Part shown: positions 9,290-15,774 of the stretch, in pieces
Numbering within the stretch: position 1 is the first letter of the stretch
Layout: every line of letters starts with the position of its first letter
Source of the DNA: a virus
Virus record (IMG/VR): IMGVR_UViG_3300042868_008548
Span: 1-21,193 of that record
Strand: one strand, 5' to 3'
Length of the DNA: 21,193 bases
Program-made: the position numbers and the translations under genes
Notes under the pieces: model-generated
Told to the model about the DNA's origin: nothing
Databases searched by the model: none
The model's input: only the letters and a program-made list of their open reading frames with translations

Positions 9290-10723
9290 ATGCGCATAGA
9301 GCAATTGTTAGAACAAAACAAATATAATTCACAAATAATTCTTCAAGAGTCTTGTGATGGCCTTACTAATGCGCAAAGACTTGTTGTAGAAGGCATTTAT
9401 AATGAGCTATCACCTTTATTAGAAGTAGCTCTTACTACTGATCAGATTAAAAACATATTTCAATCTGTTGAAAAGAATGCAACAGCAGCTGGCGGTAATA
9501 GAACACTGATAGGCAAGGGTGTAGACACAGCTCAACAGGTCAATGCTGCACTTAGCAAATTAGGTAAATGGCTGCAGGATACCACTCCGGTCAACGCATT
9601 TGACTCTAAGTTTGAACAATTAAAATCCAATGTAGGTAAAAAGTTTCCAGAATTAGATAAAAAACTAACTAGCATGGGTGAATGGGCCAAGACCAATCCA
9701 GGCAAGACCGCAGCAGTTATTGGTATACTCACAACACTAGCAGCTCTAGCAGGTGGTCCAGTTGGCGGTGCTATCGCGGGTCAGATACTAAAAGGTTCCG
9801 CAGAACTGCTCAAAGGTGAAAAACTTTCTACCGCTGTGGGCAAGGGTATGAAAGCTGCTGCCTACGGTTTCCTAGCTGGCAAATCTCTAGAAGCCATTGG
9901 CGATATATTCAAAAGCGGTATAGAGTTTGTGGCAAATAAAATGTATCCTGGAGTAGTTAACTCAACCATGATCCACAACAATCAAGTGTTATGGAATGTT
10001 GATCTAGCTGCGCCAGACGCTGAAAAATTAAAAGTGTTAACTGACGCTTCTTCTAAAGCAATGTTTAACAATGATCCCGATTATATAAACTTGCTGAACA
10101 AAGCTTCAAAATTTGTCGCTGACACAGTGAACAAACCAGGTTACTATGATAAACTGGTCTCTGACACTGTCGCAGCAGAAAAATTACTGTCAGCAGGCAA
10201 TGCTGCTGCCACTGCTATACAGGGCTTTGGTGCTGCGGCACAAGGTGCTGTCACTGCCCGGACCGGTGAGAAAAAAGAAAGCTATTACACACAGGCACGT
10301 CCATTAAGCGAAGGACAGGTCTATGTGTTGTTCAAGCGTGTGACAGAACAACAGGCTATCATGGAAGCAGGTATCCTAGACAAAGCTAAACAGTTGGGCG
10401 GCAAAGCACTAGGTGCAGTGGCCAAAGGTGCGGCTGCTGTGGGCAAACAGATCACAACTAATGCCACATATCCAAAATTATTCGCTGCATGGAAACTGGA
10501 AGGTTCTCCTACAGATTCAGAAGAACTAAAAAAGTTTTTAACCAACTATGGTGGTATCACTCCAGAAGTTATCAACAAAGTCTACGCAGACATGAAGATC
10601 GCAGCAGGACCCACAGCGCCTGATATTGAAGCAGTGAAGAAAATAGTCATGGGTCTGCCTACAGATCGCAAAATTAGATTGATGAAATACATACAAAAAC
10701 AACCAGCACCTGCAGCGGCTTAA
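9290..10723 (+). CDS. putative internal head (ejected) protein with a glycine-zipper membrane segment
   Basis: This 477-residue protein opens with MRIEQLLEQ, resembling T4 capsid-targeting N-termini such as MKTYQEFIAE, with an L-L-E site for gp21-type cleavage at residues 6-8 and another (L-Q-E|S) at 18-20. Residues about 136-167 are hydrophobic and Gly/Ala-rich (VIGILTTLAALAGGPVGGAI), like a membrane-inserting glycine zipper. Around residue 330 comes PLSEGQVYVLFKR, then a consensus-like I-M-E|A at 357-360. After it comes a basic Gly/Ala module (AGILDKAKQLGGKALGAVAK) and a C-terminal helical domain with AAWKLEGSPTDSEELKKFL. The two genes downstream carry related modules. I infer a protein packed in the head, processed by gp21 and delivered with DNA. 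Family unknown; it could be another virion protein. Confidence 0.55.
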   Translation: MRIEQLLEQNKYNSQIILQESCDGLTNAQRLVVEGIYNELSPLLEVALTTDQIKNIFQSVEKNATAAGGNRTLIGKGVDTAQQVNAALSKLGKWLQDTTPVNAFDSKFEQLKSNVGKKFPELDKKLTSMGEWAKTNPGKTAAVIGILTTLAALAGGPVGGAIAGQILKGSAELLKGEKLSTAVGKGMKAAAYGFLAGKSLEAIGDIFKSGIEFVANKMYPGVVNSTMIHNNQVLWNVDLAAPDAEKLKVLTDASSKAMFNNDPDYINLLNKASKFVADTVNKPGYYDKLVSDTVAAEKLLSAGNAAATAIQGFGAAAQGAVTARTGEKKESYYTQARPLSEGQVYVLFKRVTEQQAIMEAGILDKAKQLGGKALGAVAKGAAAVGKQITTNATYPKLFAAWKLEGSPTDSEELKKFLTNYGGITPEVINKVYADMKIAAGPTAPDIEAVKKIVMGLPTDRKIRLMKYIQKQPAPAAA

Positions 10724-10733
10724 GGATCCAACC

Positions 10734-11501
10734 ATGAGAATAAATGAAATACTAGTTGAATCAAAATTAGACGAAGGTCCAGTGGGATCACTGGTCAAAG
10801 CTGCAGGTCGAGGAGTAGGGAAAGCTGTAGGCGGAGTAGCCAAAGGTGTGGGCGCAGTGGCTGGAGGTATTGCGGGAATTGGATCAGCATTTAAGAAAGG
10901 ATTCTCAGCAGGTAAAAGCACTGTAGCCGGAGAACCTACCCCTGTCACACCTAAACCCACAACATCTACAGCTGGTAGCAGTACTTCAACTGCAGCCGCT
11001 GGTACCGGACAAAATGCAGCACCGGATCAAACACAGGCTAAAACAGGTAACACAGTAGGAGCACCTAGTGGTCAAGCCCCAGCAGCATCAACAACTCCCA
11101 CTGATACAAAGGCAGCACCATCTGCAGCGGCTGCACCCGCAGTTTCTGCAAAATCAACAGATGCAACAGCAGCAGCACCAGCAGCAAATCTAAAAGCAGA
11201 CACTGCTTATGCTCAAGCACAGAAAGCCATTGCAGGCATGGCACCAGAACAGAAAAAAGAATTAGTTACGATGATACAGGCTGATCCAAAGGTCAAGGCA
11301 GCATTAGTTAAACCCGCTGTACAAAAACCTGTGACAGCACCTACTGCATCCCAGGCAGTAGCAAAACCAAAAATCAAACAACCACTTAAAATCAAAGGTG
11401 CTAAACAAGCAGCACCACAACCTCAGCAACAGTTAGCAGCCAGCCTAGAACCCAAAGCTAATATGGTGGCAGAAGATTTTAGTATTTTTAGGAAGCACTA
11501 A
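10734..11501 (+). CDS. putative internal head protein, Gly-rich module plus Ala/Pro/Thr low-complexity region
   Basis: This 255-residue protein starts MRINEILVESKLDEGPVG, with two (L/I)-x-E sites (L7-V-E|S and L12-D-E|G). A basic glycine-rich module begins directly after the second (GPVGSLVKAAGRGVGKAVGG, then VAKGVGAVAGGIAG), about residues 15-57. Residues 60-150 are almost only Ala, Thr, Pro, Ser, Gln and Gly; a short helical patch (AYAQAQKAIAGMAPEQKKEL) lies around 160-180; the rest is basic, Pro/Gln/Ala-rich and ends EDFSIFRKH. No enzyme motif is visible. The start follows the previous stop by 10 bases with AAGGA upstream, and its stop shares one base with the next start (TAATG). Similarity to its neighbours suggests a shared origin and a common fate in the capsid. 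Confidence 0.55.
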   Translation: MRINEILVESKLDEGPVGSLVKAAGRGVGKAVGGVAKGVGAVAGGIAGIGSAFKKGFSAGKSTVAGEPTPVTPKPTTSTAGSSTSTAAAGTGQNAAPDQTQAKTGNTVGAPSGQAPAASTTPTDTKAAPSAAAAPAVSAKSTDATAAAPAANLKADTAYAQAQKAIAGMAPEQKKELVTMIQADPKVKAALVKPAVQKPVTAPTASQAVAKPKIKQPLKIKGAKQAAPQPQQQLAASLEPKANMVAEDFSIFRKH

Positions 11502-11968
11502 TGAAAATTCGTGATATCGTATCAGAAGCAGGTATAGTACAAGCTGTGGGCAAAGGTGTAGGCGGTCTTGCCAAAGGTGTTGGTACTGTAACAGGTGCAG
11601 CAGCCGGAGCAGCACAACTAGCACAAAAGGGATTTAAACAGGGTCAAGACACCATGGACAAGATTTTAAATCCTAAAAGATGGTTCAGCAAAGATCAAAA
11701 TAAAGATACAGCTAAGACCACTCCACACTCCACTGTATCAGAACCTTATGAAAATCGAAGAATACTTCAACAAGCAGGGCAAGGTCGTCCTCTTTATCAG
11801 CAAGATCTCGCAAATCTAAAATCATTGCACAGAGCGATTTCCAGCGGAGAAGTTCCTACCAACATAGATCAAACTTCATTATTATTGGCTTTGAAATCAG
11901 CCTATAGTGGTCAGACGTTAAACGACAATCAAAAAAAATTGCTGATGCAATTTAGCCAGCAATTTTAA
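11501..11968 (+). CDS. putative internal head protein, third member of the cassette
   Basis: This 155-residue protein starts MKIRDIVSEAGIVQ, close to the T4 capsid-targeting peptide in length and pattern, although the cleavage site reads V-S-E rather than L/I-x-E. The glycine module follows at once (GKGVGGLAKGVGTVTGAAAG, residues about 17-36), then a basic segment (KGFKQGQDTMDKILNPKRWF). A helical C-terminal part (YQQDLANLKSLHRAI, LLLALKSAYSGQTLND, KKLLMQFSQQF) follows. AGGAAG at 11490-11495 is the ribosome site. The stop (11966-11968) overlaps that of the convergent small gene at 11965. Function is inferred from its neighbours and from its N-terminus only. Confidence 0.55.
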   Translation: MKIRDIVSEAGIVQAVGKGVGGLAKGVGTVTGAAAGAAQLAQKGFKQGQDTMDKILNPKRWFSKDQNKDTAKTTPHSTVSEPYENRRILQQAGQGRPLYQQDLANLKSLHRAISSGEVPTNIDQTSLLLALKSAYSGQTLNDNQKKLLMQFSQQF

Positions 11969-12138
11969 AAGAACGGTAGATTAGTTTTTTTAGTTACTTC
12001 AAGATTTTCTTTGATTATTTCGCCAACTATTTCGCGATCTTCATAACTTAGAGTCATACCTTCACTGTAAGAAAGACCTCGCATATACCAACACAACTTC
12101 ATTACATCTTTCTTTATGGCCCTGGCCTCTTTGTCCAT
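11965..12138 (-). CDS. small ORF downstream of gp26, probable -1 frameshift extension (tail chaperone, gp51 position)
   Basis: This minus-strand frame encodes at least 57 residues from ATG 12138 (MDKEARAIKKDVM, KLCWYMRGLSYSEGM, LSYEDREIVGEII, ending KKTNLPFF). 'WYMRG.SY..' followed by 'L.Y.ERE.I...I' recalls small chaperone or gp51-position proteins next to gp26 in marine T4-like phages. The frame continues upstream without a stop through LTWPEILEWSKQ and past the gp26 stop to about 12238, yet it has no ATG, GTG or TTG before 12138. It is in the -1 frame of gp26, downstream of slippery heptamers and a stem. I therefore think the main product is a gp26 fusion of about 364 aa; the start at 12138 is the alternative. 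It is shorter than many gene finders accept. Confidence 0.6.
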   Translation of the reverse strand: MDKEARAIKKDVMKLCWYMRGLSYSEGMTLSYEDREIVGEIIKENLEVTKKTNLPFF

Positions 12139-12153
12139 CTGTTTGGACCATTC

Positions 12154-12201
12154 TAGGATCTCTGGCCAGGTTAGATCTGAGACCCTACTGCGAAAAAATT
12201 T
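12154..12201 (-). promoter_or_regulatory. candidate programmed -1 ribosomal frameshift signal at the end of gp26
   Basis: Read on the minus strand, gp26 codons AAT TTT TTC contain two in-frame X XXY YYZ heptamers: A AAT TTT (12201-12195) and T TTT TTC (12198-12192). After a 7-base spacer from the first, TAGGGTCTC (12187-12179) can pair with GAGATCCTA (12162-12154) in a 9-bp stem with one G-U pair and a 16-base loop. The -1 frame then stays open for 76 codons, whereas the 0 frame stops 7 codons after the first heptamer. Confidence 0.65.
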
Positions 12202-13058
12202 GATTGATCCATAGTGATAGGCAGTGTATATTCCTTTTCACACTCTCCACATTTAACATCTTTGGCTTTGAGTTCGATAGCAGTTTTCATTACCTGTAGA
12301 TGTCCTGAAATCACAGAAAAAACTTCTTTAGAAGTATTATTAATAAAATCTTTGATCTGTTGTTTGTCAGTGGTATCACCGTCTGGTGTTTGGATTTTTG
12401 TAATACAATCTGCAATAATATCTACAGTGAGTTCTGTTAACTTAACAAAACTTTTTCCAAACCTTTCCATTTTTTCTTCGTCGGTTAAATCATCATTGTT
12501 AATGATATTGAATATTTTTTGTTGTTCTAAGGTTTTGATGCTGGTTTTGGTTGACTCTCTATAGGTATAAGGTCTGATATGTATGGTTAACGGGTCCATA
12601 GCAATTACATCTTCAAAGACAAAATTATTAAAAACCTGCAACCATGCAGCAAGATCTATTTCGTAATCATTTTTTGCACTGCAATATGGACAGGTAGATC
12701 CTACTTCCATATTCTCACCATAGGTTGCAATACGTATAGCGATCAAACAAAAGTCGAGGTCAATGCTGGGCATAGCCCAAGGGTCTGAAATCGCAGGCAT
12801 GCAACTCTTTATAACTTCCACGGTACTTTGTCCTGATAGCAATGCATCAGGAGTTTTAAACATTAGTTCATCTTTAGCAGTCATAGCATATACTGGATAT
12901 TCTTCGCTGCTACTGATGTCTAAAGACCCTGGTGCATAAAACTTGCCCTTTGATGGTAATTTCACATAAATTTTAGGCTGACGGTACCAATTTGCCAAAG
13001 GATTCTTCTTAGGCTGTGGTATTGATTCAGCAGGGTTTTCTAACAAATCTTGGCTCAT
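12171..13058 (-). CDS. 26: gp26-like baseplate hub assembly protein / putative tail chaperone
   Basis: This 295-residue protein starts at ATG 13058, with GGAG 7 bases upstream. The open frame extends 60 codons further, but that part lies over the divergent promoter region and the start of the tape measure gene, so I reject it. Family features include YVKLPSKGKFY near the N-terminus, then YPVYAMTAKDELMFKTPDAL and VEVIKSCMPAISDP, the pattern of the T4 gp26 baseplate family. C123-P-Y-C126 and C270-G-E-C273 probably form one zinc site. T4 gp26 (208 aa) acts in hub assembly. Its place beside the tape measure gene, and the -1 frame extension, suggest that it acts like the lambda G/GT tail chaperones; this is inference. 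Confidence 0.75.
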   Translation of the reverse strand: MSQDLLENPAESIPQPKKNPLANWYRQPKIYVKLPSKGKFYAPGSLDISSSEEYPVYAMTAKDELMFKTPDALLSGQSTVEVIKSCMPAISDPWAMPSIDLDFCLIAIRIATYGENMEVGSTCPYCSAKNDYEIDLAAWLQVFNNFVFEDVIAMDPLTIHIRPYTYRESTKTSIKTLEQQKIFNIINNDDLTDEEKMERFGKSFVKLTELTVDIIADCITKIQTPDGDTTDKQQIKDFINNTSKEVFSVISGHLQVMKTAIELKAKDVKCGECEKEYTLPITMDQSNFFAVGSQI

Positions 13059-13122: not shown

Positions 13123-15774
13123 ATGGCGTCAGTATTCATAGACATCCCCGGCGTAGGTAATGTAGAAGCTAAAAACGCAGCCACAGAGTCTACTCTTAGA
13201 GAGCTGGTTAATCTCATGAAAGGTGTTAAGAAGAACACCGGTGGGGGTGGTCCTCCAGGCGGAGGAGGTGGACCCGATGGTGGTGGTCAAGGTGGCGCTG
13301 GTGGACCAACTTCTGGTCTAGGCAAAGCAGCCAACATGACAGGCAAAGCTCTTGGAATAATGACTAAAACTGCATTCACTGTGATAGGTGGATTTGATAC
13401 TTTAAGTAAAGTTACCACAGGTATAATTCAAAGTTTTGCCAACGTAGGCGACAGTGTAGAAAGTGCTGCCAGTATGTTCAAAGGTATTCCTATAGTAGAT
13501 TCAATGTTTAGCGCGGTAGCCACAGCCGCAACTAAAGTAACCAAAGCCTATACAGACAGTTCTGCTGCAGGAGCCACCTTTGGTGGTAGCATGCAGAACT
13601 TTAGTCGTGCAGCCAGCACCGCTGGTATGACCATGGAAAACTTTGGCCGCATGATTGCACAAAACGGTGAAGCACTCATAGCATTTGGCACAACTACTGA
13701 AGAGGGTGCTAATAGATTTTCCACAGTATCTAAAGAATTAAGAGCCACCGGCAGCGGATTATATGCCTTAGGCTATACCACCGAAGATATCAATCAAGGA
13801 TTAGCAAACTACGGTAAAACTATAAAAATGCAGGGCCGTCAAAGCACAATGACCAATGCAGAATTAGTAGCTGGATCTAAAAAATATCTACAAGAAATGG
13901 ATCTATTGGCCAAAGTCACTGGCGAAAGTCGTAAGCAACAAGAAGACGCCAGAGAAAAACTTCTAAGGAGTGCGCAGGTACAGGCTAAGATATCAAACAT
14001 GACCAAAGACGATGGTGAAGCATTTATGAACACCATTAACGGACTGCATCCTGGACTACGAGGCGTGGCCGAAGACATTATGGTCACTGGTTCTGCGACT
14101 ACAGAACAATCACAGAAATTTTCTGCTATGATGCCTCAGTCAGCAGAAATGATGAGAAAATTTGCACAGATAACTGAGGGTGGAGGCAGAATCACTGCAG
14201 ATATGCAACAGGAATTGCAGAATCTTATGATAAAAGAAGGCAAACAGAAAGAAGCAGAAATGCGAGCTGTGGGTATGTACAGCAAAGAGAATGCCGAAAG
14301 CTATATGATGATTAAGGCTGCCTTGGGCCAGAATAAAGACGCACTGACCGCTGCAGATAAAGCACAGCTCAAAGCTCAAGAAGAAACTGATGCAATGAAC
14401 AAACGCATGCAGGAAGCTCAACAGACACTGGCAAAATTTAGTAACGGATTCCAAATGGCACTGGTAAACAGTGGACTATTAGATCTACTGATGAAAACAT
14501 TTGGCATGGTAGCGACCTTTGTGCAGAACACTGTGGTTCCTGGATTCTTTTTATTAGCAGGCATAGTCACTACTATCGGTGGGCTATTAGTAAATTCATT
14601 GTCGCCAGGCATGGCGCAGCTGAGTGATTTTATCACAAATAAATTATATCCAGTATTTGCAACCTTGGCAGCATTTTTTATAGATCATGTTATTCCTGGA
14701 ATTATGACAGCGGTAGAAAACCTATTACCAATATTTGTTGCTATAGGTGAAACACTGTTGCCGCCTATGATAGCTGTTGGCGAATTTATTTTTGACAATC
14801 TCACCCCGATACTTGTAGGATTAGGTTTTGGACTAGCGGCCTATGCTGCATATATAGCAGGTATAACTTTGATAGGCTACGCCCAAGCTACAATGGAGGC
14901 CATAAGAACTGGCACAGTGATGGCCAGCATCGCAGGATTCTTAGGATTAAACGTAGCTATGGGACCTTTTGTGCTTGCTGCACTAGCTGTGACAGCAGGT
15001 TTAATTGGATTATACATGTTGTTTAAACATTTTGGTGTGGACCTTGAGGTCGTTGGTGATGGATTTCAAAGGCTTGGCCTTTACCTCCAAGAATTCGGCC
15101 AGCAAATTGTGCGGCTGTATTACAACATCATGGACAAAATTACCCCCGGAGACAAGTACAAAGATCTAGCCGAAGAGCAAGCAGAGAAAATTAAAAAAAC
15201 CACAGACATGCAAGAAGCATTGAAAAAAAGCATGGATGACAGAATGAACGCCAATAGAGCGAAGGCTGAAGAAAAAGAAGAAAACGCAAAAAATACAAAA
15301 AATGCGTTGGATCTAAAAAATATCAAAGCAGCACAAAAAAACAATGCAGATTTAGAAGCCAACAATAAAAAACAAGCAGAAGAGCAAGAGAAAAAACTAA
15401 ATCTTAATGCTAACGAAAATGATCTATTGCTAGATTTTGCCAAACAACAAGGTAGTGGATATATCAAAGATAAACCAGCAACAACCAATGTGGCCGAAAC
15501 GAATAAAGCAAGCATGGTTGCAGAATCTCAAGCAGCAAAAGAAGGTGCACTTAAAAAAGCAGAAGAAGAACAAAAGAAAACAGAAGAAGCCAAAAAAGAA
15601 AATGCTGCTGTGGGAGCAGGTACCGCTACTCAAGAATCACCTTCATCCCTGTTGGCTAGCTTAAATACTAAGATGGATCAATTGATTAATGTAAACAGGC
15701 GTGTGTTTGAAGTGGCAGAAAATCAGTTAAGTGTCCAAAAAGGATTAACTGGCAATCTATTTAAAAGCATTTGA
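13123..15774 (+). CDS. 29: tail tape measure protein (gp29 role)
   Basis: This 883-residue protein is the longest in the window and has tape measure features. The N-terminus is MASVFIDIPGVGNVEAKNAA followed by TESTLRELVNLMKG, then a Gly/Pro-rich linker (residues about 41-64). A long helical, Gln/Ala/Lys-rich body runs to about 440, a hydrophobic stretch with several possible membrane helices occupies about 441-640 (GFFLLAGIVTTIGGLLV, LVGLGFGLAAYAAYIAGITL), and a Lys/Glu-rich coiled coil covers about 680-826. The C-terminus is MDQLINVNRRVFEVAENQL. Such proteins set tail length and help the DNA cross the membrane. T4 gp29 is 590 aa, so a longer tail is expected here. AGGA before ATG 13123 supports the start. 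It faces away from gp26, with 64 bases between them. Confidence 0.8.
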   Translation: MASVFIDIPGVGNVEAKNAATESTLRELVNLMKGVKKNTGGGGPPGGGGGPDGGGQGGAGGPTSGLGKAANMTGKALGIMTKTAFTVIGGFDTLSKVTTGIIQSFANVGDSVESAASMFKGIPIVDSMFSAVATAATKVTKAYTDSSAAGATFGGSMQNFSRAASTAGMTMENFGRMIAQNGEALIAFGTTTEEGANRFSTVSKELRATGSGLYALGYTTEDINQGLANYGKTIKMQGRQSTMTNAELVAGSKKYLQEMDLLAKVTGESRKQQEDAREKLLRSAQVQAKISNMTKDDGEAFMNTINGLHPGLRGVAEDIMVTGSATTEQSQKFSAMMPQSAEMMRKFAQITEGGGRITADMQQELQNLMIKEGKQKEAEMRAVGMYSKENAESYMMIKAALGQNKDALTAADKAQLKAQEETDAMNKRMQEAQQTLAKFSNGFQMALVNSGLLDLLMKTFGMVATFVQNTVVPGFFLLAGIVTTIGGLLVNSLSPGMAQLSDFITNKLYPVFATLAAFFIDHVIPGIMTAVENLLPIFVAIGETLLPPMIAVGEFIFDNLTPILVGLGFGLAAYAAYIAGITLIGYAQATMEAIRTGTVMASIAGFLGLNVAMGPFVLAALAVTAGLIGLYMLFKHFGVDLEVVGDGFQRLGLYLQEFGQQIVRLYYNIMDKITPGDKYKDLAEEQAEKIKKTTDMQEALKKSMDDRMNANRAKAEEKEENAKNTKNALDLKNIKAAQKNNADLEANNKKQAEEQEKKLNLNANENDLLLDFAKQQGSGYIKDKPATTNVAETNKASMVAESQAAKEGALKKAEEEQKKTEEAKKENAAVGAGTATQESPSSLLASLNTKMDQLINVNRRVFEVAENQLSVQKGLTGNLFKSI

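Follow-up and report, generated by a model that had tools for sequence, protein, structure and literature searches.

The window, a stretch of 21,193 nucleotides from a viral record (IMGVR_UViG_3300042868_008548), carries on its minus strand a homologue of phage T4 gene 26. The encoded protein matches the PF12322 (T4_baseplate) profile with an E-value of 1.4e-17 and a score of 64.5 bits (curated cut-off 24.5), and PHROG 150 (baseplate hub) with an E-value of 3.9e-22. The gene closes with the codons TCA AAT TTT TTC GCA, within which lie two overlapping heptamers, A AAT TTT and T TTT TTC, both in phase for a -1 shift. A preliminary description of this DNA had pointed to the same two heptamers, and its coordinates for the end of gp26, the heptamers, the downstream stem and the -1 frame all check out (Table 1).

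Table 1. Features at the gp26 locus of the window, with the data on which each rests.
Feature	Position	Strand	Details and basis
gp26-like gene	12171..13058	-	295-aa short product; ATG start at 13058, RBS GGAGAT; PF12322/PHROG 150
Zero-frame stop (TAA) of gp26	12171..12173	-	within the hairpin loop
Heptamer A AAT TTT, upstream, dispensable	12195..12201	-	79/81 clade members
Heptamer T TTT TTC, conserved putative slip site	12192..12198	-	81/81 clade members
5' stem arm TAGGGTCTC	12179..12187	-	pair count, covariation, fold
3' stem arm GAGATCCTA	12154..12162	-	pair count, covariation, fold
-1 extension, predicted to form the C-terminal domain of the 364-aa protein	11965..12192	-	75 codons beyond FF and a stop codon
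Large divergent ORF of 883 aa, probably encoding a tape measure or virion protein	13123..15774	+	position in relatives

The large ORF that diverges from gp26 occupies the same position as a structural protein detected by mass spectrometry in PA5oct, and as an RaK2 protein described as resembling a tape measure; searched against Pfam and PHROG it gave no match, and no tape-measure family. On the other side of gp26 three plus-strand ORFs lie in a row (9290-10723, 10734-11501 and 11501-11968) and open with similar tags (MRIEQLLEQ, MRINEILVES and MKIRDIVSEA). The second has a high content of Ala, Thr and Pro, and none of the three matched PHROG. The last of them and the -1 ORF converge tail to tail, with an overlap of 4 nt at their stop codons (11965..11968).

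In the window the -1 frame is uninterrupted from a TGA at 12240 to a TAA at 11967..11965. The preliminary description held that this frame offers no start codon between the upstream stop and 12138, and that a shift would give rise to a minor, roughly 364-aa product; ATG 12138 is indeed the first start, and translation gives a predicted product of 289 + 75 = 364 aa with the junction SNFFRSR. An open -1 frame of at least 77 codons arises in 0.2% of base shuffles. Canonical in-frame heptamers are not rare, however, with 22 per 6046 in-frame positions in the window's genes. Since lone heptamers are this common, the case rests on comparison.

Scanning viral contigs for gp26 returned 359 relatives, of which 80 (61-85% identical) were kept; together with the window they form a clade of 81 sequences. 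All 81 have T TTT TTC unbroken and in phase, and the -1 ORF follows in each, three loci ending before it is complete. Both heptamers had been named as the slip site. For T TTT TTC, universal in the clade, the proposal stands; A AAT TTT fails as a universal site, being broken in two clade members (L047 and L080) and absent from most of the cyanophages considered below, and may still contribute. Elsewhere in the gp26 genes of the clade phenylalanine is encoded 579 times by TTT and 116 times by TTC, and from this usage T-TTT-TTC is expected at X-F-F with a frequency of 0.087. Among 59 distinct -1 ORF sequences, which are related and do not represent 59 independent events, the codons of T TTT TTC show zero synonymous change.

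The protein read from the -1 frame is conserved in the clade from its first codon on (FFR.KI...PEIL). For codons 9-19, a segment that lies outside gp26 and ahead of the ATG position used in the window, and that overlaps in part with the 3' stem arm, the -1 reading has a dN/dS of 0.27, compared to 1.1 and 2.0 in the other two frames. By this measure the codons of the -1 ORF that precede any shared start, those upstream of 12138 included, are under purifying selection. The first available start codon is scattered, being most often a TTG at codon 10 (30 sequences) or an ATG at codon 20 (16), 38 (13) or 8 (11), and a Shine-Dalgarno-like motif precedes it in only 4 of 68.

A conserved Phe-Phe at the end of gp26 might produce a T-rich string through protein constraint, with no further meaning, and T4 does keep Phe-Phe (KEFFELL) without a frameshift signal. 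Phe-Phe genes of the T4 group nevertheless use TTC TTT and not TTT TTC, the window clade always uses T-TTT-TTC despite its codon preferences, and the -1 ORF is coding and keeps its phase. We therefore regard coincidence as scarcely credible.

The 9-bp stem formed by the two arms encloses the gp26 stop, and the region around it (68 nt) folds in the window with -19.4 kcal/mol (z -2.2). Pairing was counted for a 10-pair stem on an ungapped alignment of 49 sequences of the window clade. The stem is formed in 91.2% of cells, against about 51% or less in slid controls; 28 cells carry changes on both sides, compared to 8.1 in shuffles, and covariation is 0.225, compared to 0.138. The column pair 15-42 has 32 GC, 16 AU and 1 GU pairs and none broken; each of the two columns is the third position of a codon of the -1 frame (Lys AAG/AAA and Ile ATC/ATT). 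The stem of the window clade thus covaries, synonymous positions included. Across the clade the mean folding z is -2.2 downstream of the heptamer and -0.1 in the upstream control. RNAalifold retained only 4 of the 10 pairs; the evidence for the stem is therefore the pair count and the single-sequence folds. The stem begins about 3 nt from T TTT TTC, a spacer below the usual, and 6 nt from A AAT TTT.

A scan with gp26 of cyanophage S-RIM8 added 80 loci (L102-L181). T TTT TTC stands at a fixed place in all 80, and 79 carry the complete -1 ORF, which is truncated in the last; this ORF is the gene annotated as gp51 in cyanophages. A Shine-Dalgarno-like string, GAGGG or GAAGG, lies 9-10 nt upstream of the heptamer in 77 of 77 distinct cyanophage loci (control 4%) and is absent from the window clade (0 of 68). 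A conserved Glu-Gly encodes this string, so selection on the protein could be enough to account for it. One phage, S-SCSM1 (L097), is an exception: it has an intact T TTT TTC at the end of gp26 (near 2187) with its gp51 ORF in the +1 frame, which reflects either a sequencing indel or a real loss, and is possibly a sequence error.

Isolated jumbo T4-like phages, the gp26 of which is about 25-35% identical to that of the window, show the same arrangement. All 13 examined have an in-phase site followed by a -1 ORF: T TTT TTC in 11 and T TTT TTT in two (XacN1 and RAS14). T TTT TTC is also present in SRB7757, Moby, S-PM2, R11Z and X1, again with the small ORF in the -1 phase; in Melnitz the site reads T TTT TTT and the -1 frame runs on. 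Scans with gp26 of Bakedbeans and Atu_ph07 added no new relatives. Folding revealed strong structure downstream (z of -3 or below) in Atu_ph07, PA5oct, XacN1 and cyanophage S-PM2, and no strong structure in BF, RaK2, CBB and Munch. A single fixed hairpin common to all jumbo phages was thus not seen; structure is strong in some and weak in others.

Mooltan, VAP7, Vibrio K413 and Cygsa01 do not have the heptamer; their small ORF nevertheless keeps the -1 phase and often overlaps the gp26 stop as TAATG. T4, AM101, phiAS4 and other T4-group phages, judged on gp26 genes with a complete 3' end, are without an in-phase heptamer. Four loci from the Ackermannviridae and related phages (L196, L200, L201 and L099) retain the small ORF in the -1 phase, carry other strings near the end of gp26 (A ATT TTC, A CTT TTC, C GTT TTT and C ATT TTC) and mostly show a TAATG overlap. 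For Ackermannviridae and relatives that are without the heptamer, either another slip signal or coupled initiation would account for expression of the small ORF. Judged from these comparisons, the majority of the wider T4-like phages that were looked at have very probably retained the frameshift.

If the run of T led RNA polymerase itself to slip, a mixed population of mRNAs would result, each then read in the normal way. A run of six T is present, and it extends to seven in XacN1, RAS14 and Melnitz. Six T is nevertheless short for transcriptional slippage, and the run stays at six because a C closes it in nearly all sequences. The X XXY YYZ phase of the site, together with a covarying hairpin or a Shine-Dalgarno-like element, fits tandem tRNA slippage better, and polymerase slippage is in our view very unlikely.

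More serious is the possibility that the small ORF is a separate gene, expressed without a frameshift by termination and reinitiation near the gp26 stop. Deposited records treat it as its own CDS in most isolates (in RaK2 and PA5oct it is omitted). Stop-start overlaps of the TAATG/TGATG or ATGA kind occur in 121Q, BF, Phosso, Moby and R11Z (TAATG or TGATG in 121Q, BF, Moby and R11Z), and 32 of 77 cyanophage loci offer an ATG 5 nt past the stop as their first start. Against this, the small ORF of PA5oct and SRB7757 is without any start codon, and in the window clade the first start wanders from codon 8 to codon 38, so that no start codon is conserved across the relatives. Coupling is also at odds with purifying selection on the codons ahead of the first start, and leaves unexplained the zero synonymous change in T TTT TTC. 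As a general account it is improbable; it may apply to the Ackermannviridae/K413 branch, in which the heptamer is missing.

The relationship to T4 was explored by profile comparison. The cyanophage fusion of gp26 with its -1 extension aligns to T4 gp51 (probability 98.5), and this alignment, which coupling likewise leaves unexplained, sets in close to the beginning, crosses the junction and reaches the end; the cyanophage -1 domain by itself aligns to residues 188-252 of T4 gp51 (95.4). T4 gp51 in turn aligns to T4 gp26 (98.9), and PHROG 634 spans both cyanophage gp51 and residues 147-246 of T4 gp51. On these alignments T4 gp51 is a paralogue of gp26, and the alignments and the coverage of PHROG 634 make it look like an in-frame long form, equivalent to the predicted frameshift product. 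The window fusion aligns to the cyanophage fusion (90.7) and the window -1 domain to those of the jumbo isolates (99.3). The preliminary description had placed the small ORF in the position of gp51: the cyanophage fusion and -1 domain lend this support, whereas the window -1 domain alone does not align to T4 gp51 (1.1). Because the chain from the window to gp51 is indirect, by way of the cyanophage fusion, the name gp51 for the window extension is no more than likely.

The gp26 model (pLDDT 81) had no Foldseek match at an E-value of 0.001, and the HK97 tail chaperone 2ob9, which aligned to it over 101 of 107 residues (Z 5.9, rmsd 4.9), was tied with unrelated chains; this single candidate is suggestive at most, and a convincing chaperone fold for gp26 was not obtained. 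The -1 domain gave a confident, helical model (pLDDT 91), for which fold comparison returned no convincing or informative match; its sequence matched nothing in Pfam, in PHROG or among the sequences of solved structures. From homology with T4 gp26/gp51 and by analogy with lambda G/GT, we infer that the short and long forms of gp26 act as tail assembly chaperones.

The comparative tests suggested in the preliminary description each turned out in its favor. Taken together, the locus is very likely best read as a conserved programmed -1 frameshift producing a tail chaperone of the lambda G/GT type, for which T4 uses two genes. Slippage itself, and how often it happens, we infer from sequence comparison. 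Gp26 would then be a gene with two products. Most ribosomes would terminate at the zero-frame stop and release the 295-aa short protein; a smaller share, held up by the stem that starts a few bases downstream, would shift back by one base at T TTT TTC, where both tRNA-Phe can re-pair with UUU, and would read 75 further codons to make the minor product of about 364 aa. The extension would serve to recruit a further component of the tail. T4 would encode the two forms separately, as gp26 and gp51.

On balance we favor a history in which the T TTT TTC frameshift is ancestral in the T4-like superfamily and its stimulators are specific to clades (in cyanophages a Shine-Dalgarno-like site ahead of the heptamer, in the jumbo-phage clade that includes the window a covarying hairpin after it), the Tevenvirinae having exchanged it for a duplication of gp26 and an in-frame fusion of the extension, that is, gp51. 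If most T4-like phages do frameshift and T4 has lost the ability, then gene duplication and in-frame fusion would explain why T4 is an exception, and the roles of T4 gp26 and gp51 as short and long chaperones become testable. It would also follow that, in public records, cyanophage 'gp51' and the small ORFs downstream of gp26 in jumbo phages have probably been overlooked or wrongly entered as genes of their own.

Xu, Hendrix and Duda are said to have described in 2004 the conserved frameshift in the tail chaperones of long-tailed phages, lambda G/GT among them, and in 2022 Vladimirov, Gautam and Davidson reportedly identified gp26/gp51 as the tail assembly chaperones of T4-like phages. A 2016 review of recoding calls the tail-chaperone frameshift conserved in long-tailed phages 'except T4' (PMC5009743). 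The PRFect paper (PMC10885494) refers to Vladimirov et al. 2022 on T4-like phages in which a short gene is accompanied by a long, fused one, and the paper on phage Adele (PMC12846349) credits that study with poly-T slip signals of T4-like TAC genes. The preliminary description did not recall such a frameshift being described for T4-type gp26, a statement that we do not adopt, given the 2022 identification and the latter citation; the core of the frameshift idea may thus be partly published already. The covarying stem and the spread of the frameshift among jumbo phages were not found in the literature, which was covered in part.

Several known systems resemble the one described here. As in lambda G/GT, a short putative chaperone gene ends in a putative slip site and a minor, longer -1 product is predicted, following the same two-product logic; unlike lambda, the protein belongs to PF12322, the family of T4 gp26, slippage would take place on T TTT TTC, and the large neighboring gene, a probable tail or virion gene, is divergent. 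Adele, a phage of the Vandenendeviridae, shares a conserved -1 frameshift deduced from comparison, a poly-T signal and a small ORF often annotated separately; it belongs to another phage family and has a GTTTTT motif, and the available part of its description does not report RNA covariation (PMC12846349). T4 itself has the gp26 homologue, and residues 188-252 of its gp51 correspond to the cyanophage -1 domain, but its two forms appear to come from two separate, divergent genes, whereas the window, the cyanophages and the jumbo phages would make both from one gene and a frameshift. In E. coli dnaX, ribosomes slip on A AAA AAG under the joint influence of an upstream Shine-Dalgarno-like element and a downstream stem. 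Both elements have counterparts here, the first in cyanophages, about 10 nt before the heptamer, and the second in the window clade; unlike in dnaX, each clade clearly shows one stimulator.
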